The notes under the pieces were generated by a model. The model was given only the letters and a program-made list of their open reading frames with translations. It was not told the origin of the DNA and did not search any database. The translations under genes and the position numbers were made by a program. Positions 250-28,713 of a DNA stretch of 34,829 nucleotides are shown here, one piece after another; position 1 is the stretch's first letter; the number at the start of each line of letters is the position of its first letter. Origin of the DNA: an uncultured Lentisphaerota bacterium (GTDB lineage Bacteria > Verrucomicrobiota > Kiritimatiellia > RFP12 > UBA1067); the NCBI GenBank assembly GCA_900320225.1, contig ONRL01000058.1:1-34829 (forward strand). Reading direction: 5' to 3'.

Positions 250-384
250 TGGTATCCTCTGTCTGGGTTGAACGACGCAGACAGTTTACCAAATCCCGCC
301 CCACCCGACAACGAGGCAATCTCTTGGCGAGGCGCGCCCCGCGCCCACCCCTCGCGCGCAATCTCCCCACGCCCCCGCGGGAGC

Positions 385-513
385 GGCCGCACTTGTCGCG
401 GCCGTATGGAGAGCCGCCATCTTGGCGGCGCATTTGCCCCGCAACTGCCGCCTACGGCATCTCTACCTTCACCTTGAAGAACCGATGGGCGGCGTTCGTG
501 GGGTACCCCCACG
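385..513. repeat. ~130-bp dispersed repeat, copy 1, with REP-like hairpin
   Basis: This stretch is nearly identical to 1257-1382. Shared blocks include CGTATGGAGAGCCGCCATC and CCGATGGGCGGCGTTCGTGG. Inside is a perfect hairpin, GCCGCCA-TCT-TGGCGGC, at 413-429. No run of T follows it on either strand, so it is not a clear terminator. The two copies are direct repeats about 870 bp apart and bracket the higBA pair. The rest of 250-384 is GC-rich and shows no gene. Confidence 0.8.
452..511 (-). pseudogene. Remnant of a gene 3' end (HRFFKVKVEMP tail), copy 1
   Basis: Reading the minus strand towards a TAG at 452-454 gives about 19 codons ending in PTNAAHRFFKVKVEMP. The same tail, with the same stop, is encoded in the second repeat copy at 1321-1451. 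The tail resembles the C-terminus of large secreted repeat proteins seen in this bacterial group (from memory, not searched). Nothing upstream extends the frame into a full gene, because the higB promoter begins at 517. It is best read as a gene-end fossil carried within the repeat. Confidence 0.5.
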
Positions 514-516
514 TTT

Positions 517-562
517 TTGACAATTGTTAGCACTTGACGTATAACGCTGAACGTAATATACT
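517..562 (+). promoter_or_regulatory. Two overlapping promoters for higBA
   Basis: Two sigma70-like promoters overlap. The first is TTGACA (517-522), 17 bp, TATAAC (540-545). The second is TTGACG (534-539), 17 bp, TATACT (557-562). Both have the ideal spacer. The second would start transcription almost at the higB ATG at 570, giving a leaderless message; the first leaves a leader of about 18 nt. ACGTATAACG and ACGTAATATA form an imperfect direct repeat here that could be a HigA operator, which is inference. Confidence 0.6.
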
Positions 563-569
563 TTGCGAC

Positions 570-848
570 ATGATTTCCTCTTTCAAGGACAAGGACACGC
601 GCGAATTATACGAAACCGGCAGTAACCGTCGGTTTACGGCGGTTGCGCGAATTGCGCTGCGGAAGCTAGACATGCTTGCCGCCGCAACGCAAGTTGAGAC
701 CTTGAGGGTTCCGCCCGGCAACCATTTGGAGGCATTGAGCGGCGACCGGAAAGGACAATGGAGCATTCGCATAAACGGTCAGTGGCGAATTTGCTTTAAA
801 TGGAACGGCAGCAATGCCGAAGAGGTTGAGATCGTGGATTATCATTGA
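570..848 (+). CDS. higB: HigB-type toxin (RelE/ParE superfamily)
   Basis: A 92-aa protein matching the HigB/plasmid maintenance killer family. These are RelE-fold toxins that cut mRNA, usually on the ribosome. Visible family marks are the N-terminal ISSFKDKDTRELYE, a central ALRKLDMLAAAT helix, the LRVPPGNHLEAL stretch, GQWSIRINGQWRICF and the C-terminal VEIVDYH. Length is typical. The ATG at 570 is preferred because a TTG further upstream lies inside the promoter. No Shine-Dalgarno sequence precedes the ATG, so the message may be leaderless or nearly so. The antitoxin gene follows after 12 nt, in the toxin-first order typical of higBA. Confidence 0.88.
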   Translation: MISSFKDKDTRELYETGSNRRFTAVARIALRKLDMLAAATQVETLRVPPGNHLEALSGDRKGQWSIRINGQWRICFKWNGSNAEEVEIVDYH

Positions 849-860
849 GGAGACGAAACC

Positions 861-1175
861 ATGCGCACGAAAAACTTGATTCATCCCGGGGAGATTCTGA
901 AAGAGGAATTTCTGGAGCCGCTTGGCATCAGCCAGAACCAACTGGCGATCGACATACGCGTCCCTGCGCCGCGCATCAGCGCCATCGTGCATGGGCGGCG
1001 GGCCATTACCGCAGATACGGCGTTGCGACTCGGCGCCTACTTTAAGATGGAGCCGCAGTTCTGGCTCAACCTCCAGAGCAATTACGACATCGGTGTTGCA
1101 GCGTCGGGGGCGTGGGCGCGAATCAAGAAGTTGATTCCGGAGTTTGTTCCAAGGAACGTCGCCGCCGCCTTGTGA
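861..1175 (+). CDS. higA: HigA-type antitoxin, XRE-family DNA-binding protein
   Basis: A 104-aa protein of the HigA family (addiction module antidote). It opens with IHPGEILKEEFLEPLGISQ, a family signature. A helix-turn-helix follows at about residues 23-60 (SQNQLAIDIRV, PRISAIVHGRRAIT, ADTALRLGAYF). FWLNLQSNYD is also typical. HigA binds and silences HigB and represses the shared promoter. GAGGAGACGAAACC lies just before the ATG and gives a good ribosome binding site, stronger than that of higB, which fits the need for excess antitoxin. The pair lies between two copies of a 130-bp repeat at the edge of a lower-GC gene block. Confidence 0.9.
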   Translation: MRTKNLIHPGEILKEEFLEPLGISQNQLAIDIRVPAPRISAIVHGRRAITADTALRLGAYFKMEPQFWLNLQSNYDIGVAASGAWARIKKLIPEFVPRNVAAAL

Positions 1176-1256
1176 CACCTAGCCATTGTACGCTGGTTGC
1201 TCTCCCCCACCTTGAATCGCCGCCGTGGCGCGTACCCCGCGCGCCCGTGCGGGGGT

Positions 1257-1382
1257 GGCCGCGCTTGTCGCGACCGTATGGAGAGCCGCCATCCTGGCGG
1301 CGGCTCATCGCACGCGCCGCCTACGGCATCTCCACCTTCACCTTGAAGAACCGATGGGCGGCGTTCGTGGGGCACACCCACG
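1257..1382. repeat. ~130-bp dispersed repeat, copy 2, with REP-like hairpin
   Basis: Direct repeat of 385-513, with a few substitutions. The hairpin is GCCGCCA-TCC-TGGCGGC at 1285-1301; the stem is conserved and only the loop differs from copy 1. Together the copies flank higBA. The hairpin is also downstream of the Sel1 gene on the minus strand and could slow transcription leaving the nine-gene operon, but no U-tract follows. Confidence 0.8.
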
Positions 1383-1451
1383 CCGCATCCGTCAGGTTCG
1401 TCTTGCCCATCACCGTACACACGCGCACTTCGCCATTGATGTTGAATGCCC
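1321..1451 (-). pseudogene. Decayed 3' end of a secreted-protein gene, copy 2
   Basis: On the minus strand one frame reads AFNINGEVRV and then jumps to the frame reading CTVMGKTNLTDAAW and on to NAAHRFFKVKVEMP before a TAG at 1321-1323. The jump is explained by loss of 2 nt in a GTGTGT run near 1418. The fragment begins 8 nt beyond the stop codon of the Sel1 gene and has no start of its own. It is longer than copy 1 and shows what the original tail looked like. Family identity is uncertain. Confidence 0.5.
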
Positions 1452-1458
1452 AAACAAG

Positions 1459-2697
1459 TTATCTCTCAACCTGCGAAGTATCCTTCTCGAATTGCTCCAT
1501 AAAGTTTCTTGCCGGTTCACAGCCCATGTCGGCGGCTTGCTTTATGATGTCTAGAAACTCACCAGCCTGTCTCCTGATTTCTCGTTCTTCCTGTAGCCTC
1601 TTTCTATGTGTTGAATAGTCGATCGCTCCTTTGGATACTCGCGCCGCCTTCTCAAAGAGATCTTTCTTCTGACCATACTCGTCAAGGCACTTGAACCACC
1701 CTGACAGACCGTAAAAATACATCTTCAATTTATTTGCCTTGTCACGCTTGTAAAAATCTGAGAAGATCTGAAACGCCTTGAGCGAATCCGAGCATTTCTT
1801 GTCCTTCGAGAAAAGATACAACCTTCCCAGGTCCCATTTGGCAGACACATAGCCGGGATCTTGCCTTAAAGTATTCTTAAAGGCCTCCATAGCTTTGTAA
1901 TCAGATTTCATGTATTCTGGCATTCCCCATTGTGTCTCATCGCTACATGTCCAATAAAGAAGTCCAAGATAGTACCATGCCTTGGGCAAACCAGCACGAC
2001 CTGCTGCCAAATAATGATCTGCAGCTACCATATAGTTCTTCTTGTACAGTTCGGCGTTTCCAACTATCAACCCCGCCTTTTTCCACCCAGCGGCGAAGGC
2101 TTCTCTAAACCACGGGACGATAAGTTCCCATTCCTCTTCAGTCAATACAGAAAGTGCGTTGTCAAGATCACCTTTCTGCCAACGTTTCACGAAGACCGCT
2201 TTCGCAATCGGTTTCTCTTTCGCCGCATCGTACAAGATCCTGATGCCGATCTTTGGGTCCTTGCGTTTACCGTTGCGGCCAAGAATCCAATCCAAGGCGA
2301 CTTCAATCTCGTCAATGCGCTCTTCCGCCGTACTTGTTACTTTATCGGATTCCACCGTAGCAGACTCAGCATTCTCGCCACTCGCCAATGCTCGGTACTT
2401 CGCTGCGAGCATGGCATCCTTCTTCACGAATTCACCGCGAGAATACAGTTCGGACAATCTCGCACACGCCTTCCGGTGCTTCTGCTCGGCAGCCTTCTTA
2501 TACTGAATCACGGCACGGATGACACTCTTGCCCACACCACGCCCTTCCTCGTACCGTTGCCCGAGTTGCCATTGCGCCTCAGCATCCCCTGTCGCCACCT
2601 TCTCGCGACATTCGTCCAGCGACATTTCCGACGCCATCAGTGAACTGACAGCGCAGACAATCGCGTAAACGAATTTGACTTTATTGAATACGGCCAT
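1459..2697 (-). CDS. Exported Sel1/TPR-repeat protein, last gene of the nine-gene operon
   Basis: About 412 residues. The start at 2697 is chosen from two adjacent ATGs because GGAGGG ends 5 nt before it; the in-frame codons upstream lie inside the previous gene. Residues 1-25 look like a signal peptide (NKVKFVYAIVCAVSSLMAS). Sel1-type repeats follow: GDAEAQWQLGQRYEEGRGV, AVIQYKKAAEQKHRKACARL and LSELYSRGEFVKKD, with further ones around AADHYLAAGRAGLPKAWYYL and KWDLGRLYLFSKD. Such alpha-helical repeats act as scaffolds for protein complexes. The gene overlaps the preceding ExbD-like gene by 17 nt, so it is probably translated with it. A periplasmic adaptor role for the channel complex is inference. 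Confidence 0.8.
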   Translation of the reverse strand: MAVFNKVKFVYAIVCAVSSLMASEMSLDECREKVATGDAEAQWQLGQRYEEGRGVGKSVIRAVIQYKKAAEQKHRKACARLSELYSRGEFVKKDAMLAAKYRALASGENAESATVESDKVTSTAEERIDEIEVALDWILGRNGKRKDPKIGIRILYDAAKEKPIAKAVFVKRWQKGDLDNALSVLTEEEWELIVPWFREAFAAGWKKAGLIVGNAELYKKNYMVAADHYLAAGRAGLPKAWYYLGLLYWTCSDETQWGMPEYMKSDYKAMEAFKNTLRQDPGYVSAKWDLGRLYLFSKDKKCSDSLKAFQIFSDFYKRDKANKLKMYFYGLSGWFKCLDEYGQKKDLFEKAARVSKGAIDYSTHRKRLQEEREIRRQAGEFLDIIKQAADMGCEPARNFMEQFEKDTSQVER

Positions 2698-3550
2698 CAT
2701 AACCCTCCACGAACGAAAGTGCATCCGTCTCATGTACATGCCAGTTGTATTGCTTATGGTAATAAATCAATGCATCGCGTAGCTCGCACAACTGCGGGAA
2801 GGACTCCCTGTCAGAGTATATGCGAATGAAGCCCTGCGTCCCGAGACCTTCTTTGATCCCCTGCCAATCCAGACCACGGAAAAAGGACTCGTCCACTCGA
2901 TATCCGCTACCGGGAATGATCGTATAGGTCCAATGTGCCTTCCCGCCCTCACTACGTGGCTCGGTCTTGCATTTGCATTGTGCAGCATTCTTCAACAGGT
3001 ACAATCTTCCGCGCCGCAACCAGAAATCTTCGCATTTCAACCCGCTAATTTCACGTTCTGTCGGTGTGCGTACAGACCGTTGTTTCCCAACAGATTTCCC
3101 GAGTTTCTCCTCCAACTCCTTCAGGAGACGCTCCAAACGAGCCGCCTCTCGCTTGCTATAGACCGTATCGGTCTTAATCTTTGCCAACTCATCCTCAAAC
3201 TCAACCTTCTGGGCCTTCAGTCGGGCAACAGCCGTTGAATTGGACGCAATGTCCTGTACAAGCGAGGCAGCACTGACCACCTTCCCCTCTTCGTTCGTGG
3301 CAAGGAACGACCGCTGAATCTCGAGAGCCGATTTCAATTCATCTCTCTGCCGCGATAGTTGTGCCATCTCCCGATCAAAAAGCATCCGAACCTCATCTTC
3401 TCCGTCAACTGAATCATCGATTCCCTTGGGATGCATCGCCGAGAGAATCGCCACCATGAGCGCAATGAAGCACACGCCACCAAATGTGTTGCACATCGTG
3501 TCGAGAAGCATGTCAACACTTCCCGTGACCGTACGACCCGCTCGACTCAT
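2681..3550 (-). CDS. ExbD/MotB-like membrane protein with coiled coil (second of two)
   Basis: A 289-aa protein with one N-terminal membrane helix at about residues 12-37 (DMLLDTMCNTFGGVCFIALM), then a long coiled coil (about 55-165, rich in E, K, L and R) and a C-terminal domain of about 120 residues. An acidic residue, D17, lies near the start of the helix where ExbD, TolR and MotB carry their proton-binding Asp. The topology is N-terminus in the cytoplasm and the bulk in the periplasm. Its start overlaps the stop of the preceding partner gene by 4 nt (ATGA). It lies just after a TolQ-like gene, the normal stator context. There is no obvious OmpA-like peptidoglycan-binding motif in the C-terminal domain. 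The role as a stator subunit is inferred from topology and context. Confidence 0.7.
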   Translation of the reverse strand: MSRAGRTVTGSVDMLLDTMCNTFGGVCFIALMVAILSAMHPKGIDDSVDGEDEVRMLFDREMAQLSRQRDELKSALEIQRSFLATNEEGKVVSAASLVQDIASNSTAVARLKAQKVEFEDELAKIKTDTVYSKREAARLERLLKELEEKLGKSVGKQRSVRTPTEREISGLKCEDFWLRRGRLYLLKNAAQCKCKTEPRSEGGKAHWTYTIIPGSGYRVDESFFRGLDWQGIKEGLGTQGFIRIYSDRESFPQLCELRDALIYYHKQYNWHVHETDALSFVEGYDGRIQ

Positions 3551-4350
3551 GTGCCACCTCCCGCCGTTCCGATCGAGACCTCAACATCCTCTTCCAGTGG
3601 ATCGCGTCCGCATGAGAACCCAAGTGCCTTCACGAGTCCCGTCAACTCGTTCATCATCTCGATTCCGGAAGGCCTAACAAGAAGCACAACCGTATGCGTC
3701 GTGTGGTCAAGGTTCTCAAGTTCCCGCGTCACGCCATCTCGCAACACCCCTCTTTCAATCCATTTCCCTTTCGAGTCCTTCTTGAGTGGGCGAATAATCT
3801 CAACACCTCCTCGACCGCAAATGATATACACCGGCATTTTGAACGTCCCTCGTTCAGGAATGAGCGTAATGCCCTTCTTGTTCCGCATCGCGGCAATTTT
3901 TCCTTCCAGGATGCGCCGCGTCTCCTCCATTTCTCGCACCTTCTTCTTGTTTCTGGCGTCCGCATCCTTTGCCGCCGCAACACGTGTCCGCAAATCAGCC
4001 ACCTGCGAAACGAGCGCCGCCAATTCGCGTTCCTTGTCGTTTAACTCGGCGGTAAGTTTCGCCGCGACTTCCGGAGCTGCGGCCTCCTTGGAAGACACAA
4101 TGGCAGTACGTGCCTCCTCCCGCGCCTTTGCCAAGTCCTTTTCCAACTGCAAGATCTCCTGTCGCAACGATTCCAAGTTTACATTGGCATCTTCTTCCGT
4201 TAACGGCGGCACCGCCGCCCTGCCTTCTGGCGTCATGACGAAATCGACAAGCATGATCATCACGAACAGGATCAGTACGCCACACAATCCCGTGATGATG
4301 TCCTGGAACGCGAAAAGCGAGAACCGGACTCTCTGCCGCCGCCTTGCCAT
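3547..4350 (-). CDS. ExbD/MotB-like membrane protein with coiled coil (first of two)
   Basis: A 267-aa protein. It has a basic N-terminus (MARRRQRVRF), one membrane helix at about residues 13-37 (FQDIITGLCGVLILFVMIML), a coiled coil (about 55-155) and a C-terminal alpha/beta-looking domain containing YIICGRGGVEIIRPL and VVLLVRPSGIEMM. D17 sits at the same position as D17 of its neighbour, which suggests that both supply the proton-carrying acid of an ExbD/MotB-type subunit. The gene starts 1 nt after the channel gene stop and overlaps the next gene by 4 nt. Having two different ExbD-like partners behind one channel gene is unusual. The family is deduced from layout rather than from a strong motif. 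Confidence 0.7.
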   Translation of the reverse strand: MARRRQRVRFSLFAFQDIITGLCGVLILFVMIMLVDFVMTPEGRAAVPPLTEEDANVNLESLRQEILQLEKDLAKAREEARTAIVSSKEAAAPEVAAKLTAELNDKERELAALVSQVADLRTRVAAAKDADARNKKKVREMEETRRILEGKIAAMRNKKGITLIPERGTFKMPVYIICGRGGVEIIRPLKKDSKGKWIERGVLRDGVTRELENLDHTTHTVVLLVRPSGIEMMNELTGLVKALGFSCGRDPLEEDVEVSIGTAGGGT

Positions 4351-4351
4351 G

Positions 4352-5206
4352 TTACTCGTTTTTCATAAAACGCAGACGCGAGATGATGTTGCCGTGCGCG
4401 TAGTCCCGGCACGCATCGAGGAACTGATCCTCCTTGCGGCGCAGGAACGTCATCGCCATCTGCACCACCATCGCAAGGACAAGCGCAAGGAACGTCGTGT
4501 CGAACGCGACGCTCAGGCTTCCCGTCACGGGAATCAGGCTCTCCCTCAGTGACGCCGCTGTGGCCTCGGCGTTAAGGACGGCACCAAAGCCGCCGATCGC
4601 CCCAGAAAGCCCCATGACGGTGCCGATAAAGCCAAGTATGGGGATTACCCAGACCAAACCCGACAAAAGACCGTAGCTTGAATCGACATGGTTCTCATCG
4701 TTCTCGGCGGACGCGCGCAACATCTCCGAGACATCCGACACATTACCGACATTCTTCAAATTGAGAAGTGCACGTTCAATGCGATTGAACAGAACAAACC
4801 GTTTCGGCTCATCCACGGAGTTATTCAAGGTTTTCAACACGTCGAGTGCCGTTTCCTGCGTAAGGGCAAATGACGCACCAACAGGAATCAACTCCACCTT
4901 GAACGCCCGCCGCTGGAACGACAACTTGCGCCACTTTACGAAGAGCATAACAATGGCCAGAACAAACAGAGATACCATGGCGTAGGGTGTCCATCCGCGC
5001 GCGAGAATGATTGCCATGGCTGGGTGGTTGCGAATGGCAGACGGGACATGGCATATCCCGATGAAGAACGCGCCCGTGAGTAGCGCAGTCACGAGAAACG
5101 CGAACCACAAGTTTACGTCCGTGTATTTTCCGCCCTTGAACCCACATCGCTGTTCGATGTCGCCCAAGTGCCAGTCCAACTCTTTCCTTTCAGTTCTCAT
5201 CGTCAT
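4352..5206 (-). CDS. MotA/TolQ/ExbB-type proton channel subunit
   Basis: About 284 residues. Four membrane helices are visible at roughly 32-54, 74-91, 180-202 and 230-254. The third carries the family signature VIPILGFIGTVMGLSGAIGG and the fourth SLSVAFDTTFLALVLAM, as in TolQ, ExbB and MotA. These proteins form a pentameric ring around two ExbD/MotB subunits and use the proton gradient to do mechanical work. The start at 5206 is chosen because AAGGAG lies 6 nt before it; a TTG at 5224 and ATGs at 5209 and 5200 are alternatives. The reading frame overlaps the end of the protease gene. A long loop between helices 2 and 3 faces the cytoplasm, where the operon GTPase could act on it; that link is inference. 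Confidence 0.88.
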   Translation of the reverse strand: MTMRTERKELDWHLGDIEQRCGFKGGKYTDVNLWFAFLVTALLTGAFFIGICHVPSAIRNHPAMAIILARGWTPYAMVSLFVLAIVMLFVKWRKLSFQRRAFKVELIPVGASFALTQETALDVLKTLNNSVDEPKRFVLFNRIERALLNLKNVGNVSDVSEMLRASAENDENHVDSSYGLLSGLVWVIPILGFIGTVMGLSGAIGGFGAVLNAEATAASLRESLIPVTGSLSVAFDTTFLALVLAMVVQMAMTFLRRKEDQFLDACRDYAHGNIISRLRFMKNE

Positions 5207-6821
5207 CATCGTCTCCTTGCTCAAATTCCTTGAGGTCCTTGTTGAGATCCTTGAGCTTTTGATTCATGAGTTCCATGCAGTATCTACACCCATCACGAAA
5301 CCACCCGATACTCTCACGCGGATTATCGTCATACCCGTTCGCAACTTGTGGTGCGTCCCATGAATGGTTATTCAAAAATGACTGCGCATGGCTCAATGCC
5401 TCCTTGCGTACAAGGATCATCGCCCTCAGTGCTTCTTTCATCTTTTCGTACGACTGTATTGTCTTATCGTCATATTCTTTTAACGTTTTCTCAGCGGACT
5501 TCTTCGACAATTCCTGTGCGTCGATGGCAACATTCAGACGTTGAACGAGCTCCTTACGGGCCTTTGTGCGCTCAGTCCACCGCAGAATCATCTTACCTCG
5601 TTTTTCATAAGCTTTTGCAACGGCCTTCAACATTTCGTCGAAGCCCGCATCCTGCAAATTGAATGCCTTGCCATCCATATCATTGTAGATGAGTTTTGAT
5701 TCGTTTACCTTGCGTGAGTCAAACAGCAAGAATGGTACGAGGTATTCCCAGTATGTCTCGAATTCTGCCAAGGCACGAATCTGCGCTTCGTATTCTCTGC
5801 GTTTCACCGTTTTCCAGTCTACGTCTGACAACCGAACGGCAAAACGGCGCACATTTCCGTCATAGCGCGTATTGGCATTGCTCCAATCCTCCCTTCCGGA
5901 ATCGGTCAGTTCCATGAACGCAGCCACACCAACAACCTCTCCTTTCGTATCTATGATTGGGCTTCCACTGTTCCCTTTGACGATCTCGACATTCGTTTCA
6001 AGACGTTTTGGCCCGACCCCTTGAACAAATCCCTTACTCTCCGTGGCAACCCCACCACCGAGGCTATTGCCGTACATCGTCACCTGTTCGTTCATGTTGG
6101 GCATCGCCGTACGTAAAGCAAGAGGTTTGTTCGGGTTACCTAACACTTCAAACCTTGCCAAGTCACGTCCGTCTGACGCCACGGAGAACTCCCCCAGCTG
6201 AAGGACGGTTCCATCTATCAGTCTCGCCTCGACATCACCGCTACTCCTCACTACATGCTCATTTGAAACGAGATACGTTTTTCCGTCCATTCCAAGCAAG
6301 AATCCCGTTCCACTTCCTTCCTTGCATTTGATAAGCGCAATCTTGTCCTTGACCTCAGTAAATCCACTATCTGCATCAGATTGGGCTTTCTCGGCCACAG
6401 ACGCCCTGCCGACAATCCTATGTGCCATCACAACGCCACCGCAAATCAAGACGACGAGCAATACGGCCAAACCACCCACGAGGCCCCAAATGAGTGCTCG
6501 ATTCTTACCATGTGGGGAGACCTCTTGACGAGGCATCTGTAAACGCTCAGGGATGGGCGTCCGTACAGGTCCCGCGATCACCGACGGCGAAGGATGGATC
6601 CCCGAAGGCGCTTCGATTGATTCAATGGAAGAGAACGGGGACGAAACCGTTCTGGGCACAGCTGGACGCCAGAGTTCCGAATCCTTCAAATACTTCCATG
6701 TGTTTCCATCCCCGGAAACACGGTCAAGCGATCCGAGTAGATTCAGCCTGATACGCTTGCGAATCTCCTCTTCAGAAAGCGGCCCTTCCATGCGGCCAGT
6801 ACGCTTAATCCACCATTTCAT
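5190..6821 (-). CDS. Membrane-anchored trypsin-like serine protease with N-terminal GYF-like domain
   Basis: A 543-aa protein. Residues 1-52 resemble a GYF_2 domain (WWIKRTGRMEGPLSEEEI, then DGNTWKYL). A proline-rich linker and a membrane helix at about 109-132 (LIWGLVGGLAVLLVVLICGG) follow. Residues 160-305 form a trypsin-like (S1C/HtrA-type) domain with the full triad: H189 in VSNEHVV, D220 in DGRDLARF and S285 in VKGNSGSPI. No PDZ domain is seen; the C-terminal ~230 residues are helical and end in an acidic run, DDDDDEN. Basic residues before the helix put the protease in the periplasm, in DegS-like topology. The start overlaps the previous stop as ATGA. The catalytic residues are intact, so activity is expected. 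Confidence 0.88.
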   Translation of the reverse strand: MKWWIKRTGRMEGPLSEEEIRKRIRLNLLGSLDRVSGDGNTWKYLKDSELWRPAVPRTVSSPFSSIESIEAPSGIHPSPSVIAGPVRTPIPERLQMPRQEVSPHGKNRALIWGLVGGLAVLLVVLICGGVVMAHRIVGRASVAEKAQSDADSGFTEVKDKIALIKCKEGSGTGFLLGMDGKTYLVSNEHVVRSSGDVEARLIDGTVLQLGEFSVASDGRDLARFEVLGNPNKPLALRTAMPNMNEQVTMYGNSLGGGVATESKGFVQGVGPKRLETNVEIVKGNSGSPIIDTKGEVVGVAAFMELTDSGREDWSNANTRYDGNVRRFAVRLSDVDWKTVKRREYEAQIRALAEFETYWEYLVPFLLFDSRKVNESKLIYNDMDGKAFNLQDAGFDEMLKAVAKAYEKRGKMILRWTERTKARKELVQRLNVAIDAQELSKKSAEKTLKEYDDKTIQSYEKMKEALRAMILVRKEALSHAQSFLNNHSWDAPQVANGYDDNPRESIGWFRDGCRYCMELMNQKLKDLNKDLKEFEQGDDDDDEN

Positions 6822-9800
6822 TTCCCCACCTCCACTTCAAAGAACGGGATTTTTGATGCAAACGACCGCACGACTCGTGCCGGGAAGCTCTTGGATATCT
6901 CCGTGATTTCCTCGAGAGCATCTATCGGTTTTCCGTCCCTGCACACGTGATACAACGGCTCGCCGGGCATCAGGGACGTCGAAGCGACTCGCGCCCATTT
7001 GCCATTCTGCGGCACGAGCGCCTTCTGCATCTTCAATTGCCCGTCAGATGCCTTGCGTAGAACATACAGCGGATGGTCAACCGTGACAGATTGTGGGATA
7101 TTGGGGATGATTGCATTCGGGTCCTTTTTCTGGAAGGAATTACGCGGATCAAAGAGGAGTTGTCCCGCCGTCTCAACCTTCCATCCGGCGATGTCACGCA
7201 TGGCCTTCCGCGCTGCATGCCATTCCCGATACCGTTTCACCCAGTCCGATGGCATTTTTTCAAGCAGATCAACACAGTCCGAATTTCTTTGCCGAACACG
7301 CAAGTCCCACAAGCAAACCCATGAAAGATCGTCCGGAACACCGTCAACATGAACCGGTTGGGCCAGGTCTTCCGCTTTTTTTGTCCACATTGTGAGCGAA
7401 TCGTCCTGTGGCATCAGCTGTAGCTCATCGTTAAGCCAGCGGAAGTAAATGTCGAGCATCTGTACCCTGCGGTAAGCCGTATACCGTCTTATCGTGAGAG
7501 TATTCCAACTCTCAAACTTTCGCTCATCAACCAAGTAGGCTTTCTTTCCGCTCTGCAATTTGTTCACCGCCTGTAGATGTCCGTCCATCAACTTCAGGAT
7601 TTCATTCTCGAACTGGCCGATTGTCAAGTTCGGCCGCGCGGCTAGATCTACGCATGTCCGTACTTCGTTTATGGAATCCAAGACATATCCCTTCACGTCG
7701 TTTGCCTTCTTTTCAATCTTGTCCGTCATCTTTCCATTGACTAAATCCAGCAATTCGCCGCTAATTTGTATTACCTGCGCATAGCTCGGGCGATTGAATT
7801 CCGGCCGTCCTTTTGAGACCGCAATAAATTTACCCATGCGGTCTCCAGTGTCCATCAACCCGTAAAGCGAATAGAACGAAGGGATCTCTTTCAGACTTAC
7901 GACGTTCTCCTCCAGAAACACCTTGAACTTGTCCGGGGCAATGCCTACCTTCACAGTAGATGCAAATCCCCTTTGAGCGGCGGTCGTACCAGTGAGGACT
8001 TCGCGTGCGGTAGCCACGTCAACGGGATTCGGCGCAAGCCGCTTGATTGCCGAGAAACTGGAATAAAATTCAAGCAACGCCTGCCTTGCCTCGAGAATCT
8101 CAGGTGCCGTCTGCGCGTTTTTCAATTTAACAAGTGCCTCTCGCACGTTCTTCTGCTTCTGCTCTGCATCGGCAAGCTCTTTTTCAACTTCTGTCAACCG
8201 TCCGTCTTGTTCAGGGAGGAGACGTCCGTAATCCGCCCGCCAATCTGCGAGGTCTGCCTTGCAGACGGCAACCACCTTGTCTTGGGATTCCTCGGTGACA
8301 TTATCCACTAGTTGCGTTGCGAGGTTCCGCATCCGTGCCATCAACGGTTCAAACCGTACCATTCCCTTGTCGCGGCGGGCCGCCTCGCCAGTTGCCAGAT
8401 AATCGCTATACGACGCCTTGAGTTTAAGCAACCGTGTCCGATAGTCCGCGTCATCAGCTGTCAAAAGCGATTCGGCTCGTGCGAGTTGCTGCGTCACGGA
8501 GTCATTGACATTTGTCCATTGCGCATCTTGGAAAGCCCCAAGCGAGACGAGGATGTCCGTCAACTCATTCGTCCGCGCCAGGTTCTCCGCGATCATCGTC
8601 TTGAGCTTACCCTCGTACACGTTCACGCGCGGGTCGGCGTGAACCTCGGGCTCGTCTGTTTCCAATCTCCGCAACGCCTCGCCAATCCGGTCTATGGCAT
8701 GCGCCCCATCTGCCAGCTCGGCCAATTTTGCCGCCTCGCCCTCGCACCGCATGCTGAACAGTTTCTGCCTCAGCCACCAGCCGGAGAGCGAAAGCACGGC
8801 AACAAGTGCCAGCAGCGAGCAAACCGCAATCCGCATCATCTTCCGACGCCGTTCCGCTTCCTCGTGCTGGATCACGCATTGCGCATCACGCAGCAAGTCT
8901 TCGGAGGGCTCATGGTCAAGAAACTCAGGCGCCGCCAGCGCCTCACGTATCGCCGCAGTATCCTCACGCTGAATGGCACTGTGCAGCGCCTCGCAACACG
9001 CTTTCCAACGATGTTCCCTTTCTTCCGCCTCCATCTCATCCGCAACACGCCGGCGGCACTCGTCCACCAGTTCCTGCTCATTCTCCGGAACCTGCCAACC
9101 GTTCTCCGTCAGCACGTCAATCGCACGGATCATTGAGAATGCAAGACCTCTGTTCCAGTTCTCGTCACGGCATCTCTGAAGGAGGGTCAAGTTCTCGCGC
9201 CCTTCGGCCTCACGACGACGAGACTCCTTCCCCTCCCAATAATCTTTAATGTCGGCAATCGCGCCCCCAGTCGGCTTCTTACGCCAGTTTGTCTCAAACA
9301 TCTCTCGGGCAATACGATCTTTGGCGTCCTCATCGCCCGTATCTTGCGCGGCTTTGAATTGTTCAGCCAATTCCCTCTGAATCGTGGCTTCGACTTGAAC
9401 CAGATTCGCCTCCCAGTTCTGCGAATGGTCAACCTCCACGAGTCTCCGCAACGCCCGGGCCGCAAGTAAATTGTTGTTCGTCAACGTCGCCTTGCGGTAC
9501 ATCTTCAGAAAAGGTTCAGATACAGCCTTGCTCTCGCTGAGCATCAAGACCTTCTCAAGTAACGAACTGTCAAATGGCGTCGGCTTCTGCCAACCATTTC
9601 TTTCACATAGCGCGTCCCAGTCGGGGAGCCGATTGAAGTCCAGTACGTTTATCTCATCCAAAAGGCGCGGAGGATCCTCCATGAGGCGTACGGCTTCACT
9701 CACTTGCTGGGAGGCCTCGGCATCGTGAACGGCCTCTAGCCGAGCATTGACGGCCTTCACCGCTTCGGAGAATGCATCCGCCAGCCCCGCGCCGTCGCCA

Positions 9801-9859
9801 ATCTGGCCATCGGTCTCGATGACGCGCATGATGCGCGCGATAAGGATTGAAGACTTCAT
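6818..9859 (-). CDS. Unrecognised 1013-aa single-pass membrane protein, helical
   Basis: I do not recognise this protein. It is 1013 residues with one membrane helix at about 343-364 (RIAVCSLLALVAVLSLSGWW), preceded by the basic stretch ERRRKMMR, so residues 1-340 should be cytoplasmic and 365-1013 periplasmic. Both halves look largely alpha-helical and charged; the cytoplasmic half has regular helix pairs (LLAARALRRLVEV, TLLQRCRDENWNRG) that suggest a helical repeat or adaptor. The C-terminal ~120 residues look more beta-rich (PLYVLRKASDG, EPLYHVCRDGKPID). Its start shares one nucleotide with the preceding GAP1 stop and its stop overlaps the protease start as ATGA. It is probably a structural backbone of the complex, by context only. 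Confidence 0.8.
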   Translation of the reverse strand: MKSSILIARIMRVIETDGQIGDGAGLADAFSEAVKAVNARLEAVHDAEASQQVSEAVRLMEDPPRLLDEINVLDFNRLPDWDALCERNGWQKPTPFDSSLLEKVLMLSESKAVSEPFLKMYRKATLTNNNLLAARALRRLVEVDHSQNWEANLVQVEATIQRELAEQFKAAQDTGDEDAKDRIAREMFETNWRKKPTGGAIADIKDYWEGKESRRREAEGRENLTLLQRCRDENWNRGLAFSMIRAIDVLTENGWQVPENEQELVDECRRRVADEMEAEEREHRWKACCEALHSAIQREDTAAIREALAAPEFLDHEPSEDLLRDAQCVIQHEEAERRRKMMRIAVCSLLALVAVLSLSGWWLRQKLFSMRCEGEAAKLAELADGAHAIDRIGEALRRLETDEPEVHADPRVNVYEGKLKTMIAENLARTNELTDILVSLGAFQDAQWTNVNDSVTQQLARAESLLTADDADYRTRLLKLKASYSDYLATGEAARRDKGMVRFEPLMARMRNLATQLVDNVTEESQDKVVAVCKADLADWRADYGRLLPEQDGRLTEVEKELADAEQKQKNVREALVKLKNAQTAPEILEARQALLEFYSSFSAIKRLAPNPVDVATAREVLTGTTAAQRGFASTVKVGIAPDKFKVFLEENVVSLKEIPSFYSLYGLMDTGDRMGKFIAVSKGRPEFNRPSYAQVIQISGELLDLVNGKMTDKIEKKANDVKGYVLDSINEVRTCVDLAARPNLTIGQFENEILKLMDGHLQAVNKLQSGKKAYLVDERKFESWNTLTIRRYTAYRRVQMLDIYFRWLNDELQLMPQDDSLTMWTKKAEDLAQPVHVDGVPDDLSWVCLWDLRVRQRNSDCVDLLEKMPSDWVKRYREWHAARKAMRDIAGWKVETAGQLLFDPRNSFQKKDPNAIIPNIPQSVTVDHPLYVLRKASDGQLKMQKALVPQNGKWARVASTSLMPGEPLYHVCRDGKPIDALEEITEISKSFPARVVRSFASKIPFFEVEVGK

Positions 9860-12159
9860 TATTTGATTCCCTCTACCTTGTTGATGCGGAATATCCTCTT
9901 TTGCAAGTCTACGCGAACATTCTCTTTACTCACGTTACTATCCTCTTTCGGCTTCTGCTCTTGAGATAGTTTCTCAATTATCTCGGTATACTTTTGCAAC
10001 AATTCATCCCAACCCTCGATCTTGTGGTTATTATATTTCAATGAAACCGCAAAAAACGATTTGTACTCCTTTGCCTCTTCCCACAACTTATCTATGGCAT
10101 CCTCTACATCACTCCGCACTTTCCTCTTAGTCTTCAGTTCTTCTTTGTACTTTTCGCTTTCTTTCGCAGACATACCGCCTATCTCGCGGATCCGGTTATC
10201 AGCTTTCCTTCGGTCTTTATCTAGTTGCTCATACTTTTTCTTCCCTTCTTCCGCCTTTTTCTTTTGCTCAGAATACTCGTTACAATGATTCTTAGGCGCA
10301 TTTACAAGTTTCTTCTCCTTACTCCTAGCTTTCTCGTAATAATAGTTCACCAATCTGTCCAACATCAATACATTTCCTTCCACCACCTGAGTCACATCTA
10401 AGTCTCCGTCCGCATTGATCACAAATCGTGGCTTGCCCTTCTTCTTTTCCCAAGTCCCATAAACTAGAGGGTCTTTTCCAAAACATAACTCCGCCAAATC
10501 AATCTTGTTCGTCTTGGCGAACCATGCCTCCGCTTTTCTATAGAGTGGGGTCCAGTCCCAGTATGCCACATTCTCACGAACATCCAACCAAATAATGAGA
10601 TTACCCGACGTGTCTTGAATCCCAGAGGGCGATTGAAAGTTCCATTGTTCTGCCTTAACAGTTGGATTTCTGAAAAGCTTAAATTCCGCCGGTGCATTCG
10701 TCAGTACACCATTCTTGGCATACCAATATGCACGTATAGAGCCATTTGTCATTATCTTTTCTTTCCCCAGAAACTTTGCCTTAATCAAATCCCCGTCGTT
10801 AAGAACCTCAATTCTCTTTACCTTGGTAAATACAACCTCCTTGTCTCGTTCTTCTTTCTCACGTTGATCCTTAGCGCCTGCTTCCTGTTCCTTCAAGGTC
10901 TTTTCTCTCTTATGATCTTTTTCCTCTTGACGACTCTTTCCCTTAGTCCCTTGCGCAGGCTTTCTCGCAGCTTCCTGGCTATCTTTCTTTGCAGCATCAT
11001 CCGCAGTTTGCCTCTTTCGCTTCTCTTCGGTTTTTTGCTTGGCTTCTTGATTTCTCCTCTCCTCGGCTTCCCTTTCTGCTTTAACATGCAGAGCATCAGC
11101 GGCACCACTCTCACGCATCTTTCGCGCCTGCTCAAAATACAGCCATGTGCCAACCCCTATTGCGCCGGCAACCAACACCAAAGCGGCGATCAAGATTCCG
11201 ATAAAGAGGTTTTTTGTTTCATCTTTCTTTGGTGGAATCCAAATTGGTTCCTGGCGTGGTGTTATTTCAACACCATAATCTTGCCTAGGAGAAAGAGGTT
11301 TTGCCAACGTGGTTTGCTTCATCTCCGCTTTCACCCGGTTCACTTCTTCAGCCGGTAACAACGAAGCGTTGTGGACGAAACCCTTCTCGCAATCCACCCA
11401 TGGCTGAGTCGCGGCCGCCGCATCAAAAATTCGGTCACGGTCATAGACGCCGCGTAGATGGCAAACCGTTCCTTGCGGCAGGGCAACGGGATAGGTCGAG
11501 AACGTCACCTTCTGCCTATCGGTAAAGGGAAGCAAGTCAATCAGGTCGGTGAAGAGCGCAAGAATCTTCGTACCGTCAACATCATGCGCCGTTGAGGTCT
11601 TGAAGTAGATCGTGCGCCCGCCACTTGACATGTTCTTCGCCAACTGCCGCGCAAAACCTTTTGCAAGGTTCAGGCCATTCCCCTCGCCGAACATCGCGCG
11701 CCATGCTGGGGCGTCTGCGTGTTTGGATGGCATCTCAAGCCGAAGCCGCCCCGGTGTCAGTTTGTCGGATTCCAGCCACCGCGCCACGCCCGACCATGGC
11801 GCGACAAAACGATTATATTCTTTTTGCAAAACGGACGCACCGCCAATAGCCGGCATCTCTCCTTTGGAGAACACGAGGAGATGCGCAAGGCGATTTGTAC
11901 GTCCGGTGTAGTCGAAGTCGACTGGGGCGACACGTCCCACGACATGTTCGCCCTGCGGCAGGATCACATGAAACCAATTGACGGGGTTCTCCTTGAAGTA
12001 CGTCGCGTCGTGCACACCCGTCCGGTGTTTGTAGGCACAAAACGACTCGAACCGCATTCGCAGGGTATCCGGCGTTCCCTTTGTCAGTGCAACGGTGGCG
12101 AAACCATGGGTTCCAGGAATGAGTCCGTTAGGAAGCGAAGTGTTGACGAGTTCGTACAT
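9859..12159 (-). CDS. GTPase-associated protein 1 (GAP1-N1-type) with membrane helix and coiled coil
   Basis: A 766-aa protein starting at 12159, with GGAGA 6 nt upstream. Residues 1-300 resemble the GAP1 N-terminal domain (type N1) found beside bacterial GTPases: YELVNTSLPNGLIPGTHGFA, TVALTKGTP, NPVNWFHVIL and DYTGRTNRLAHLLVF. A membrane helix lies at about 318-341 (LFIGILIAALVLVAGAIGVG). After it comes a strongly charged coiled coil (about 343-460), a globular stretch including AYWYAKNGVLTNAPAEF, and another K/E-rich helical region. The GTPase gene ends 24 nt upstream, the expected pairing for this family. It probably links the cytoplasmic GTPase to periplasmic parts of the complex. The family call comes from memory of motifs, not a search; base composition is notably AT-richer than the flanking genes. 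Confidence 0.75.
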   Translation of the reverse strand: MYELVNTSLPNGLIPGTHGFATVALTKGTPDTLRMRFESFCAYKHRTGVHDATYFKENPVNWFHVILPQGEHVVGRVAPVDFDYTGRTNRLAHLLVFSKGEMPAIGGASVLQKEYNRFVAPWSGVARWLESDKLTPGRLRLEMPSKHADAPAWRAMFGEGNGLNLAKGFARQLAKNMSSGGRTIYFKTSTAHDVDGTKILALFTDLIDLLPFTDRQKVTFSTYPVALPQGTVCHLRGVYDRDRIFDAAAATQPWVDCEKGFVHNASLLPAEEVNRVKAEMKQTTLAKPLSPRQDYGVEITPRQEPIWIPPKKDETKNLFIGILIAALVLVAGAIGVGTWLYFEQARKMRESGAADALHVKAEREAEERRNQEAKQKTEEKRKRQTADDAAKKDSQEAARKPAQGTKGKSRQEEKDHKREKTLKEQEAGAKDQREKEERDKEVVFTKVKRIEVLNDGDLIKAKFLGKEKIMTNGSIRAYWYAKNGVLTNAPAEFKLFRNPTVKAEQWNFQSPSGIQDTSGNLIIWLDVRENVAYWDWTPLYRKAEAWFAKTNKIDLAELCFGKDPLVYGTWEKKKGKPRFVINADGDLDVTQVVEGNVLMLDRLVNYYYEKARSKEKKLVNAPKNHCNEYSEQKKKAEEGKKKYEQLDKDRRKADNRIREIGGMSAKESEKYKEELKTKRKVRSDVEDAIDKLWEEAKEYKSFFAVSLKYNNHKIEGWDELLQKYTEIIEKLSQEQKPKEDSNVSKENVRVDLQKRIFRINKVEGIK

Positions 12160-12182
12160 AAAGTGTCTCCGTATCAAGCTTG

Positions 12183-13940
12183 TTAGAGCGTTCCGTTGAC
12201 AACTGGGACCAACCCCTTCTTCGCAAGCGTGAAGACGACTGGCAGTTCCGTCCAAATCGGCTTGATGTCACAGGGGCGCACACCCTCGCGCATCGGGTTG
12301 TGTCCGAGCGCGCTGACCGGCACGAACCAGACATCCGAGGCGATGTCGTGCGCCGTTGCCGTCACTTCGGGCACAACCTCGGCAAGCAACGCCTCGGTCT
12401 GACGCGACACCTCGCGCAGGGCTCCGACGTCAAGCGCGTATTTCTGCGGTGTGTCCCCTTTGTAGATGTGCGCGTCAACTGGCAGACGCGCACGGAGCAG
12501 ATCGGCTTTGGACACGCCGAAGATGAGCGGTTTTGAAAGCCGAGTCTCGCTACGGTTGCCGAGGTGCCGCCGAATGCGTGCGGACATTTCAGCCAACAGG
12601 ATGTCCTGTCGTTGCGCGTAGTTGTGCGCCGTGCCCGATCCGCGATCAAGCATTGAGCGGAAACGCGGATCGGCGGAAGGATCGAACATGAAGAAGAGCG
12701 TATCGCTGTTCAGCATGTTCAGCGTGACTGCGGAACCTTGGGTGTCGGCACCGGCCCGGAAGTGTTCGCCGGCGCTATCGTAGACGACGAGGCTCTGCGG
12801 CTGGGAACTACCCGCCATGCGGAGCTGGAAGAAACTGGGCAACGGCAGGAGAACGCTATCGCCATCCAGCATGACGCTCCGACTCACATTCGTCGCCTGG
12901 AGGTCGGTCTTCTCGATCTGCTGGAGAGTCGTATCGTCCTCTTGGAAGAACAACTTCTCCTCGTAAGCATTGATCCAGCGGTTCGCCACGGGATCGAGAT
13001 CCATGAAACTTACGCCGAACAGGCGTCTCAGCGTCTGACGACACTGCCACATGGAGCTTGCAAGGAACACGGACTTGCCCGCGCCTGCTGCCCCGACGAC
13101 TGACATCACCATCTGGGGCGTGTCCAGAAGCGTGCGTGGCAGGGACATGTGACACCGCGGACAGGCGATTTCCGTACACACCCCGCCTTCCGAGTCAATG
13201 GCAAGGCCATTGCCCGTGAACTGAGATGGCAAAAACCGGACCTGCTCCCCCTCTCCCAAAACCGGATCGCCCAGCAACCCCGGGGAGACGGACACCGACA
13301 ATACATCCTCAAGGGCAGATACGGTGCGACAGTACGGGCACATGAAACTTTCGCCAAGTTCGGCCTGAACCTCTTCCGCCGTCTCGGCACGCGCCTGCAC
13401 GGGCGTTTCACCCGGTACACTTACGACCTCACTCCCCTCGTCTTCAAAATCCACGATGTTTTCCATGTTCATCAATTGCTGGGGATTCTGTAATGTACGA
13501 ACCATCGTCTCGCGCCTGAAATAGCCCTTCTCACACCCTTCCACCAACTGTTCTGCCGTCAGGGGTCCGATCTCGTTCCCGTTTACCGTCACCATGTAAA
13601 GTTCAGCCGAATATGTGAGTGCGGCATGAGCCACCTTCTCGGGATCCATCCCCATCACAACAACGATATCATCCATCTTGACTACGTGGATTTGGGAGGG
13701 ATCGAGCCTCTTATCCCTTTGGACAACCTCCCCGTCAAGTTCCGCCGCATTCTCCGCACTGCGGTTCACATAGTAAATGCCCCTCAAGCGTTTCTCAAGC
13801 GCGAACTGCTGGCGTGAAACCGTTGGATCGTCAATGACCACACAGTTAGCCGTTGGCCCCGGAAGGCGCCCGACATAAAACGGGAACTCATCAACCGTTT
13901 CGTTGATGTTCGGCATCAAACATACAATATGCCATGACAT
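12183..13940 (-). CDS. FHA + GYF-like + zinc-ribbon + P-loop GTPase
   Basis: A 585-aa cytoplasmic protein with no membrane helix. Residues 15-98 resemble an FHA phosphothreonine-binding domain (YVGRLPG, DDPTVSRQQF, MDDIVVVMG). Residues 113-160 resemble GYF_2 (YMVTVNGNEIGPLTAEQL). A split zinc ribbon uses C201, C204, C260 and C263. The GTPase domain has Walker A GAAGAGKS at 283-290, DSAG at 388-391 as the switch II motif and SKAD at 476-479 in place of NKxD. This layout fits the bacterial double-GTPase (DO-GTPase2) group that pairs with GAP1. An AGAGGAT Shine-Dalgarno lies upstream of the ATG. FHA suggests that phosphorylation controls the system, though no kinase gene is in the window. It is likely the operon's switch. 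Confidence 0.85.
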   Translation of the reverse strand: MSWHIVCLMPNINETVDEFPFYVGRLPGPTANCVVIDDPTVSRQQFALEKRLRGIYYVNRSAENAAELDGEVVQRDKRLDPSQIHVVKMDDIVVVMGMDPEKVAHAALTYSAELYMVTVNGNEIGPLTAEQLVEGCEKGYFRRETMVRTLQNPQQLMNMENIVDFEDEGSEVVSVPGETPVQARAETAEEVQAELGESFMCPYCRTVSALEDVLSVSVSPGLLGDPVLGEGEQVRFLPSQFTGNGLAIDSEGGVCTEIACPRCHMSLPRTLLDTPQMVMSVVGAAGAGKSVFLASSMWQCRQTLRRLFGVSFMDLDPVANRWINAYEEKLFFQEDDTTLQQIEKTDLQATNVSRSVMLDGDSVLLPLPSFFQLRMAGSSQPQSLVVYDSAGEHFRAGADTQGSAVTLNMLNSDTLFFMFDPSADPRFRSMLDRGSGTAHNYAQRQDILLAEMSARIRRHLGNRSETRLSKPLIFGVSKADLLRARLPVDAHIYKGDTPQKYALDVGALREVSRQTEALLAEVVPEVTATAHDIASDVWFVPVSALGHNPMREGVRPCDIKPIWTELPVVFTLAKKGLVPVVNGTL

Positions 13941-14002
13941 TGTACAATATCCTCTTCTTATTGAGTTTGCGCTTAGCTAGCACCGACAGGCAAAGGATAT
14001 TT

Positions 14003-14992
14003 TTATTGTCCTGGGTAACAGCAAAGACGAAAGCCAAAAAAGTTAAAAAGCCACTGAGATGGATAACAAGAGAACCTTTTAGCAGAACGACAGTCTTGGG
14101 CTTTACTATACCAATCACCGCCACGGAGCACACGACACGGCCCTGAAGAAGCCCCAACAGGATCAAACTCCTTATCTATCGCATAATCCTCATACCAATC
14201 ACGACACCACTCCCATGCGTTTCCATGCATGTCGTAAAGTCCCCATGCATTCGGTTGAAATGAACCGACCTTCGTACTTGCAGAGACATACCCACCGTTA
14301 TCCTCTTTTCTATTTTGGAGATAGCGCCCGAGTTCGGCCAGGCCAGCATCATTAACCAAGTCCTCCAAGTCCTTGCCGTTGTTTAAGGCCGTTGTAGTAC
14401 CTGCGCGGCACGCATATTCCCATTGCGCCTCCGTGGGCAGATCGAGGTTAAGATTCGTGCGCGCACGGATCTTCCCCAAGAAAGAATATGCATCTACCTG
14501 CTCTGAGGAAGGCCAATTCGACCCCGTATCCGCCCCACGGATGTCATTATACGTTATATACTCAACTGGTCTAGTGTCACCTCGATTGTACGAGGGATTC
14601 TCACCCATTACAAGTTTCCACTGCTTCTGAGTGACCTCAAAAACACCCATGTAAAATGATTTAGAAATCGTAACACGATGTAATGTCTCGTCCGCAGCAT
14701 GTCCCGACTCCGACTCTGGACTTCCCATTGTGAACGTCCCCTGAGGAATCAAGCGAAGCCAAAGTTCGGTTGTACGACATGAATCTTTTGAAAGGTCCGG
14801 TCCTTCCCCTGAATAACGAACAGGATAAGTCGTTGCACTAGGCCCCCCAGATAAATCTATTACAAGAAATTGCTCTTTGCCTTCAGTGGAAACTTCTTTC
14901 CTCAATCCCGTCGCATCACCTCGGCACAGGTGTACGCCCATAAGCAACGCAATGGATATCCATTTGATTGCATCCCTCACCCAATTATTCAT
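14003..14992 (-). CDS. Secreted SUMF1/FGE-fold (formylglycine-generating-enzyme-like) protein
   Basis: About 329 residues from the ATG at 14992, with AAGGAAG 8 nt upstream; a GTG at 15001 is the other option. A signal peptide covers about residues 1-25 (DAIKWISIALLMGVHLC). The rest is an FGE-sulfatase/SUMF1 domain: GTFTMGSPESE, FYMGVFEVTQKQW, PVEYITYND, LPTEAQWEYACRAGT, AWGLYDMHGNAWEWCRDWY, RVLRGGDWYS and FFGFRLCC. In true FGE two Cys act in the last third; here the first position appears to be Ser and only the second is Cys, so sulfatase activation is doubtful and ligand binding by this C-type-lectin-like fold is possible. It ends 62 nt before the GTPase gene with no terminator between, so it is probably the first gene of the operon. 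Confidence 0.85.
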   Translation of the reverse strand: MNNWVRDAIKWISIALLMGVHLCRGDATGLRKEVSTEGKEQFLVIDLSGGPSATTYPVRYSGEGPDLSKDSCRTTELWLRLIPQGTFTMGSPESESGHAADETLHRVTISKSFYMGVFEVTQKQWKLVMGENPSYNRGDTRPVEYITYNDIRGADTGSNWPSSEQVDAYSFLGKIRARTNLNLDLPTEAQWEYACRAGTTTALNNGKDLEDLVNDAGLAELGRYLQNRKEDNGGYVSASTKVGSFQPNAWGLYDMHGNAWEWCRDWYEDYAIDKEFDPVGASSGPCRVLRGGDWYSKAQDCRSAKRFSCYPSQWLFNFFGFRLCCYPGQ

Positions 14993-15083
14993 TCTGCACA
15001 CTTCCTTTCATGCCTCCATCGTTATTGAAGAGATACGCTCCATTCGGAGGCGAAATAGAACGGCGCACTCTCGAGATTCCATC

Positions 15084-15201
15084 TTCTCCGAGGCGCCGCT
15101 AAGAGCCTTTGTAGAAACAGAATCGGAAAGTGCGCCGCGTGTTGACACGCGACGCACCACCGTATTTCGCTTCTACTTTAGATTAGCGGTCTTTCGGAGA
15201 A
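15084..15201. repeat. 118-bp imperfect palindrome upstream of the nine-gene operon
   Basis: Nested inverted repeats share one centre near 15143. The innermost arms are GTGCGCCGCGTGT (15130-15142) and ACACGCGACGCAC (15145-15157), 13 bp with one mismatch that pairs as G-U in RNA. Next come GTAGAA (15111-15116) and TTCTAC (15171-15176), then CCGCTAA (15096-15102) and TTAGCGG (15183-15189), and outermost TTCTCCGA (15084-15091) and TCGGAGAA (15194-15201). It could be a folded RNA, a MITE-like element or a recombination site. It lies between the SUMF1 start and the repeat cluster. Confidence 0.7.
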
Positions 15202-15229
15202 AGCTACTTTACGCTGGTTGCGTAACGTC

Positions 15230-15264
15230 TGCCGTTGGCGCACACCCGTGCGCACGGCAGTTTT
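15230..15264. repeat. Strong hairpin with short T run
   Basis: TGCCGT-TG-GCGCAC-ACCC-GTGCGC-ACGGCA at 15230-15259 forms a 12-bp stem with a 2-nt bulge. TTTT at 15261-15264 follows on the plus strand. It looks like an intrinsic terminator for plus-strand transcription, but no plus-strand gene precedes it. Confidence 0.5.
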
Positions 15265-15379
15265 GTGTCGCGCTCCTTCGGCGGCGCGCTCGGCGAGCAC
15301 GCCCAAAGTGGCGACCGGTCCGGCGGTGAATGCCGCCGGTATGTCAAAGATCAGGAGTTTCTCGCAGGGTGGAAGGTGC

Positions 15380-15675
15380 CGTGGATGAAGCGGCGGGAGC
15401 GCCGCTTCCCCGAAAGGGCATGATCCCCCGAGTGGAAAACGTGAAAATGATACCATATCTCGCCTTTGAGCGCAAGGGGGCGGGCGGAGCGGAGGTTCGC
15501 TTCGGGAATGCGGGCTACGGGATGGACCGCGTCGCAAGACGCGGAACATCCCGCAGACTAAGGGGCCCGAAGTGAAGCCTCCAGACGCCCGCCCCGGCGG
15601 CGCGCTCGGCGAGCGCGCCCTACCAGGCGGGCGCAACAAGTTGCGCCCCTCCCGCAACGGGCAAGATGCCCGTTG
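15380..15675. repeat. Cluster of REP-like hairpins between the two operons
   Basis: Several compact inverted repeats lie in this gene-free stretch. GAAGCGGCG/CGCCGCTTC is near 15388-15410. GGGATG-GA-CCGCGTC-GCAA-GACGCGG-AA-CATCCC is at 15519-15552, with a GNRA-type loop. GGCGCGCTCG/CGAGCGCGCC is at 15599-15619; a related block, GGCGGCGCGCTCGGCGAGCA, is near 15280. GGGCGCAAC-AA-GTTGCGCCC is at 15629-15648. CAACGGGCA-AGA-TGCCCGTTG is at 15655-15675 and reads TGILPV on the minus strand. No conserved gene is seen in 15202-15686. The hairpins sit immediately downstream of the pilB-like stop and may protect the mRNA 3' end. Confidence 0.7.
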
Positions 15676-15686
15676 TCCCAGTGCGG

Positions 15687-28684: not shown

Positions 28685-28713
28685 GGATTTTCTTCCTTCC
28701 GTTCGGAGTTGCT

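Follow-up and report, generated by a model that had tools for sequence, protein, structure and literature searches.

The stretch of DNA analysed here, 34,829 nucleotides of an uncultured Lentisphaerota bacterium (contig ONRL01000058.1, assembly GCA_900320225.1; Verrucomicrobiota in the GTDB lineage) and called the window below, carries between positions 1459 and 14992 an operon of nine minus-strand genes in which a DO-GTPase gene and an adjoining GAP1-N2 gene stand together with the genes of a predicted TolQ/TolR-type motor. Open reading frame calling bore out the nine tightly packed genes, coordinates included, that an earlier note made from the letters alone had described. The widest junction is the 62-nt gap from the SUMF1 gene to the GTPase gene; at most of the others the genes overlap or lie a few bases apart and, when conserved start codons are used, the overlaps amount to 1 nt for GAP1/P1013 and 4 nt each for P1013/protease and EXB1/EXB2. 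In the direction of transcription, the genes and, last, the island that holds them are:

14003..14992, minus strand: secreted protein of the SUMF1 fold (FGE-sulfatase, PF03781, 145.8 bits); accessory, in the window and in genome G049 only
12183..13940, minus strand: DO-GTPase2 preceded by FHA-like and GYF_2-like domains at the N-terminus, with a four-Cys zinc ribbon (Pfam, invariant motifs); core
9859..12165, minus strand: GAP1 protein with GAP1-N2 and a weak GAP1-M match (Pfam), one transmembrane (TM) helix at about residue 316 and a C-terminal half past it; core
6818..9859, minus strand: P1013, a single-pass protein of 1013 amino acids (aa) without a Pfam family; core, in 36/38 loci
5190..6821, minus strand: protein with a GYF-like N-terminus, a TM helix at about residue 107 and a trypsin-like protease (PF13365, 63 bits); fills a variable slot
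4352..5224, minus strand: MOTA, MotA/TolQ/ExbB channel subunit with four TM helices (PF01618); core; the true start is probably the ATG near 5197
3547..4350, minus strand: EXB1, ExbD/TolR-like, with a TM helix and Asp17, a coiled coil and a TolR/ExbD-like C-domain; core
2681..3550, minus strand: EXB2, a second ExbD/TolR-like protein and paralogue of EXB1; core
1459..2739, minus strand: Sel1/TPR-repeat protein with a hydrophobic N-terminal segment; accessory, in close relatives only
294..15688, no strand: island; everything between these positions is missing in genome G058 of the same genus, where the flanks abut

The core set of this operon, namely GTPase, GAP1-N2, P1013, MotA, EXB1 and EXB2, recurs as a unit in two phyla. 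In sets of 388 Verrucomicrobiota and 392 Planctomycetota genomes, searched with a profile of the operon's MotA and with GAP1-N2, co-localisation meant that a MotA gene and a GAP1-N2 gene were no more than 12 kb apart, and strong MotA hits were compared with weaker hits to other MotA proteins. The counts were 29/36 strong versus 0/74 other MotA in the Verrucomicrobiota (Fisher p = 2.7e-20) and 14/20 versus 0/23 in the Planctomycetota (p = 5e-7), p-values that ignore relatedness between carriers and are to be taken as indicative. Homologues of these genes, whose lying mostly apart the earlier note had named as the sign that would speak against its grouping, are thus found together. All seven verrucomicrobial exceptions sit on contigs that end before a GAP1 gene is reached, and five of them keep P1013 beside the motor; of the six in the Planctomycetota, L142 and L143, on very large contigs, truly lack GAP1 and the GTPase, and the remainder lie close to the start of their contig or on a short one. 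All six core genes are present in 29 loci, nearly all in a single order (GTPase, GAP1-N2, P1013, a variable membrane protein, MotA, EXB1, EXB2) that is shared by independent loci, some on multi-megabase contigs, with median gaps between core genes of -4 to about 10 nt; L054, which is without EXB2, L061 and L039 are rearranged. Because these six-gene loci agree so closely in order and the arrangement recurs in the Planctomycetota, it is far beyond chance. SUMF1 and Sel1 were considered as core genes and rejected, both being present in G049 and Sel1 alone in G063, that is, in close relatives only; the Sel1 match itself is below the Pfam cut-off in the window protein. Variants of the layout include a gene for a RecQ-like helicase that immediately follows EXB1 in L054 and, in L146 and L147 of the Planctomycetota, two GAP1-N2 genes that flank the GTPase gene, one per side, in otherwise canonical operons.

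The window GTPase matches DO-GTPase2 (PF19993) with 33.3 bits (cut-off 27), a domain detected in 25/29 members of its family, and the P-loop GAAGAGKS (GxxxxGKS), the DxxGE and KxD motifs and the four Cys residues are invariant in 29/29. Of the FHA/zinc-ribbon GTPase of the earlier note, the GTPase and the ribbon stand; FHA and GYF_2 both fall under the Pfam cut-off in the window protein and are detected in 6/29 and 16/29 family members, respectively. The adjacent gene, previously taken for GAP1-N1-like, encodes a GAP1-N2 protein (PF20013, 62.4 bits; the domain is found in 30/30 family members) with a weak GAP1-M match (21.1 bits, cut-off 24; 22/30 members match at E<=0.01). A DO-GTPase domain, a zinc ribbon, a Walker B glutamate and an adjoining GAP1-N2 gene are all present, and because of this GTPase/GAP1 pair the operon belongs, as judged by sequence, to those DO-GTPase systems that make up the GAP1-N2 branch. 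FN3 gave no match at E<=1 in the nine proteins, the FNIII component being rapidly evolving by description, so that a miss is possible. GAP1-N2 systems of other kinds, without a motor, were also seen in genome G062 of the same genus (L019) and genome G054 of the same family (L021), the latter with HSP70-like proteins by sequence, a published theme.

In the other half, MOTA (MotA_ExbB, 43.4 bits, cut-off 22.9) ends at residue 290, its last TM helix beginning at 233, and the pore residues T202, T243 and T244 are invariant in 39/39 members; here, as for the SUMF1 protein and the protease, Pfam agrees with the identity first proposed. EXB1 and EXB2 share one architecture, a single TM helix followed by a coiled coil and a C-domain, with the TM-proximal Asp17 in 38/38 and 36/37 members, respectively, and with C-domains that are mutually related (96% probability in a profile comparison). 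Neither window protein has an ExbD (PF02472) or MotB match in Pfam, and an ExbD identity by sequence was rejected at the profile level; ExbD and TolR are typically below sequence detection according to a study of MotAB evolution (PMC12505986). It is the predicted fold that speaks for this identity: the EXB1 C-domain is modelled as beta-beta-beta-alpha-beta-alpha-beta, with a predicted local distance difference test score (pLDDT) of 74-88 in most of the domain, and in a VIA comparison TolR (5by4) came top with Z 9.0, ExbD (8vgd) giving Z 8.0 and a root-mean-square deviation of 1.6 over 66 residues. This supports, short of proof, a TolR/ExbD-type periplasmic domain in EXB1. The ExbD/MotB-like label that both proteins had been given thus fails at Pfam, and position, topology, the Asp and the EXB1 predicted fold suggest that they are ExbD/TolR-like. 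The parts of a TolQ/TolR-type motor would then all be present, that is, a channel subunit with pore Thr residues, a single-TM B subunit with its Asp and the predicted EXB1 fold. Sequence searches of the PDB returned mostly coiled-coil or weak matches with the EXB1, EXB2 and P1013 profiles and no motor match with the MotA profile. Modules that combine a MotA of ~400-510 aa, in several cases with an N-terminal zinc ribbon, with EXB1/EXB2-like proteins also stand alone, without the GTPase (L068-L073), and are common in the phylum.

P1013, conserved as a protein of ~1,000 aa, has a TM helix at about residue 340 and is modelled, at low confidence, with a helical part before it (1-340) and a further helical part with a small C-terminal beta region after it. 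Like EXB1 and EXB2 it matched no informative Pfam family, and a Foldseek search with its model gave nothing at E<=0.001, alpha-repeat matches only. P1013-like genes lie beside GTPase-GAP1 with no motor nearby in L062, L063 and L065 and, as weak matches, beside the motor alone in L142 and L143, and this occurrence with either half fits the pattern of a linker. The slot between P1013 and MotA is variable: GYF_2 proteins fill it in 17/30 loci, with trypsin (4), PrsW (3), RDD, DUF805 or TM2 parts, and the window's occupant (Trypsin_2) has its His, Asp and GNSGSP Ser all intact. In the slot after EXB2, vWA proteins were found at roughly half of 23 loci and ankyrin repeats at two; Sel1 takes this place in the window's close relatives. 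Changing partners around a constant core are an argument made by Kaur et al. for conflict systems in the text of PMC7159879.

The operon also appears to move. Since the sequences flanking window 294-15688 are contiguous in G058, the 15.4-kb stretch between them is either an insertion in the window genome or a loss in G058; G063, of the same genus, carries the operon at another site with different flanks, and in the MotA tree host families interleave, one Planctomycetota sequence joining one from Verrucomicrobiota family f9. The same island holds a HigB/HigA-like toxin-antitoxin pair (window 534-1175, plus strand), bracketed by direct repeats of two sets (440-513/1309-1382 and 356-430/1228-1302). 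At its other end, a type II/IV secretion ATPase gene (15620-17362) differs from same-genus orthologues in its last ~50 codons: similarity ends at residue 529, the frame of most relatives is 566 aa long, and the frame difference lies near the island boundary at 15688. A dispersed repeat of ~235 bp (15053-15350) has two more good copies in the genome and is also present in G056 and, in G063, upstream of the operon. Farther away, window 27179-34073 holds an ordinary resistance-nodulation-division efflux set (an outer-membrane efflux protein and an AcrB-type pump) with, between them, a gene that matches glycoside hydrolase family 16.

How might the two halves of the operon act together? We favour, as an evenly balanced proposition, a proton motor of the TolQ/TolR type under a DO-GTPase/GAP1-N2 switch, the physical coupling being predicted. 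The earlier proposal of a GTPase switch that acts on a proton-driven machine is well founded, because the genes of the GTPase/GAP1 pair and of the motor are conserved together as a single, closely packed unit. On the cytoplasmic face, the GTPase head (FHA/GYF/zinc-ribbon) would sense a cue from the cytoplasm or the membrane and, together with GAP1-N2, set an on or off state at the inner membrane, and P1013 would bridge the GTPase/GAP1 complex and the motor, which would span the envelope. In a MotA pentamer around an EXB1-EXB2 pair, proton flow would move or open the coiled-coil and TolR-like periplasmic parts, which may in turn drive the variable periplasmic module, GYF-trypsin in the window and a PrsW, RDD or vWA protein at other loci. 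A horizontally spreading response to conflict or stress at the level of the envelope is the role that we consider most likely; phage defence, also put forward in the earlier note, is possible as a putative role. Several observations weigh against this reading. In an hhalign comparison with a local ExbD alignment, EXB1 and EXB2 did not rise above shuffled controls; the EXB1 model as a whole reaches no more than moderate confidence (pLDDT 67.8), and RNase-H-like folds, which are unrelated, come close to TolR and ExbD in their scores against EXB1 (Z 8). The AlphaFold 2 model of P1013 is helical and poor (pLDDT 59.6). PADLOC matched few flanking genes (8/110), a share that does not exceed that of the control flanks (CRISPR-associated genes are present in one of these), and a defence-island setting was rejected on this ground. 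Finally, the mechanism is one that we infer, physical contact and phenotype being predictions.

Part of the evidence could be read otherwise. A surface-motility, adhesion or secretion machine, in which a GTPase would control a TolQ and two-TolR motor that pulls on envelope proteins, much as MglA governs AglR/Q/S in Myxococcus gliding, shares with that gliding motor the layout of one TolQ and two different TolR proteins under a GTPase (PMC9389320, PMC9120999, PMC12288465), and the vWA proteins that fill roughly half of the downstream slots agree with it, vWA-motor modules of Planctomycetes-Verrucomicrobia-Chlamydiae (PVC) bacteria having been proposed for gliding in the section of PMC12204202 that deals with them. 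The operon's GTPase is, however, a DO-GTPase2, and Pfam detects neither a Ras-like (MglA) nor a Roadblock (MglB) domain in the nine proteins; the TM helices of the vWA proteins downstream in GAP1 loci gave no match to the SHLS/histidine motif described in that section for the published transducers, and the distribution is patchy and island-borne, so that this role appears rather unlikely to us. An abortive anti-phage system, whose GTPase trigger would open the motor as an ion leak or free the protease and thereby kill the infected cell, we judge unlikely. The proposal of GAP1-N2/DO-GTPase systems as conflict systems in the text of PMC7159879, the HigB/HigA-like pair on the same island, the horizontal spread, the variable effector slot and the intact protease triad all point towards it, whereas defence genes are not over-represented in the flanks and Pfam finds neither a nuclease nor a classical toxin in the operon. 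PADLOC run on the operon itself returned coiled-coil noise, a weak ZorA and a generic trypsin match only; no model convincingly matches the core, and a named defence system was rejected.

Could the operon simply hold two modules side by side, a GTPase/GAP1/P1013 system and an independent motor that never touch? GTPase-GAP1-P1013 does stand alone in L062, L063 and L065, as do motors without the GTPase in L068-L077 and L142-L143, but MotA genes of this subfamily rarely occur away from GAP1-N2, other MotA genes are never near it, and gene order and overlaps are preserved across two phyla, which makes such independence very improbable. The coupling of switch and motor that we favour would give the PVC TolQ/TolR-pair motors, taken to be of the 5:2 type, a defined GTPase switch, and the GAP1 system a defined output. 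To our knowledge, no energy-using motor output has been proposed for GAP1-N2/DO-GTPase systems. More tentatively, at somewhat less than even confidence, we envisage a separate, horizontally spread class of GTPase-gated, proton-driven trans-envelope machines in Planctomycetota and Verrucomicrobiota, in which a conflict GTPase/GAP1 switch toggles a TolQ/TolR-TolR' motor and deploys interchangeable periplasmic effectors.

The statement in the earlier note that no described system has this set of genes was too strong. DO-GTPase/GAP1-N2 systems were predicted as conflict systems by Kaur et al. (2020), the text of which (PMC7159879) already reports FGS (SUMF1-like) and GYF-trypsin or GYF-TM partners in planctomycetes; as described there, these systems resemble the operon in their zinc-ribbon DO-GTPase, Walker B glutamate, adjacent GAP1-N2 protein with a TM helix, FGS and GYF-trypsin partners and presence in planctomycetes and verrucomicrobia, the operon differing in its additional motor and P1013 genes and in having no detected FNIII component. 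That text contains zero occurrences of MotA, TolQ, ExbD or proton, its supplementary tables or figure being places where motor genes could still be listed, and a literature search by family names gave, beyond this paper, one passing mention only of GAP1-N2/DO-GTPase systems. The other half has likewise been described, separately: the PVC modules of PMC12204202 combine a tolQ-like gene with two tolR-like genes that differ from each other, a TPR gene and the gene of a vWA protein, the proposed force transducer, and so parallel the operon loci with their one tolQ-like and two different tolR-like genes, often a downstream vWA gene and a helical/TPR protein nearby. Unlike in the operon, no GTPase or GAP1 is described in the section on these modules, and the window has Sel1 where they have vWA. 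The new part is therefore the motor module, in no published description found; the switch half, like the protease and SUMF1, is a theme that had been described before.

With Zorya, to which the earlier note had likened the operon in concept, a MotA-like channel (ZorA) and a MotB-like partner (ZorB) with ion-path Thr and Asp residues are indeed in common, but the operon has two B subunits and is GTPase-linked. Membership was rejected: the long cytoplasmic tail of ZorA is missing and ZorA models match at E 0.0044 or worse, Pfam and PADLOC find no ZorC, ZorD or ZorE among the nine proteins, and EXB1 and EXB2 have no OmpA match, the modelled EXB1 C-domain being TolR-like. The best functional parallel known to us, and an analogy only, with no homology to MglA found, is the AglR/AglQ/AglS gliding motor of Myxococcus, which the GTPase MglA activates and which has two MotB-like subunits (PMC9389320, PMC9120999, PMC12288465). 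Both would be GTPase-controlled motors with one MotA-like and two MotB-like proteins; the GTPase families differ, no relationship has been shown, and Glt proteins were not looked for. If the coupling proposed here is true, the operon would add, after MglA/AglRQS, another bacterial GTPase that steers a proton motor, drawn from a different GTPase family.

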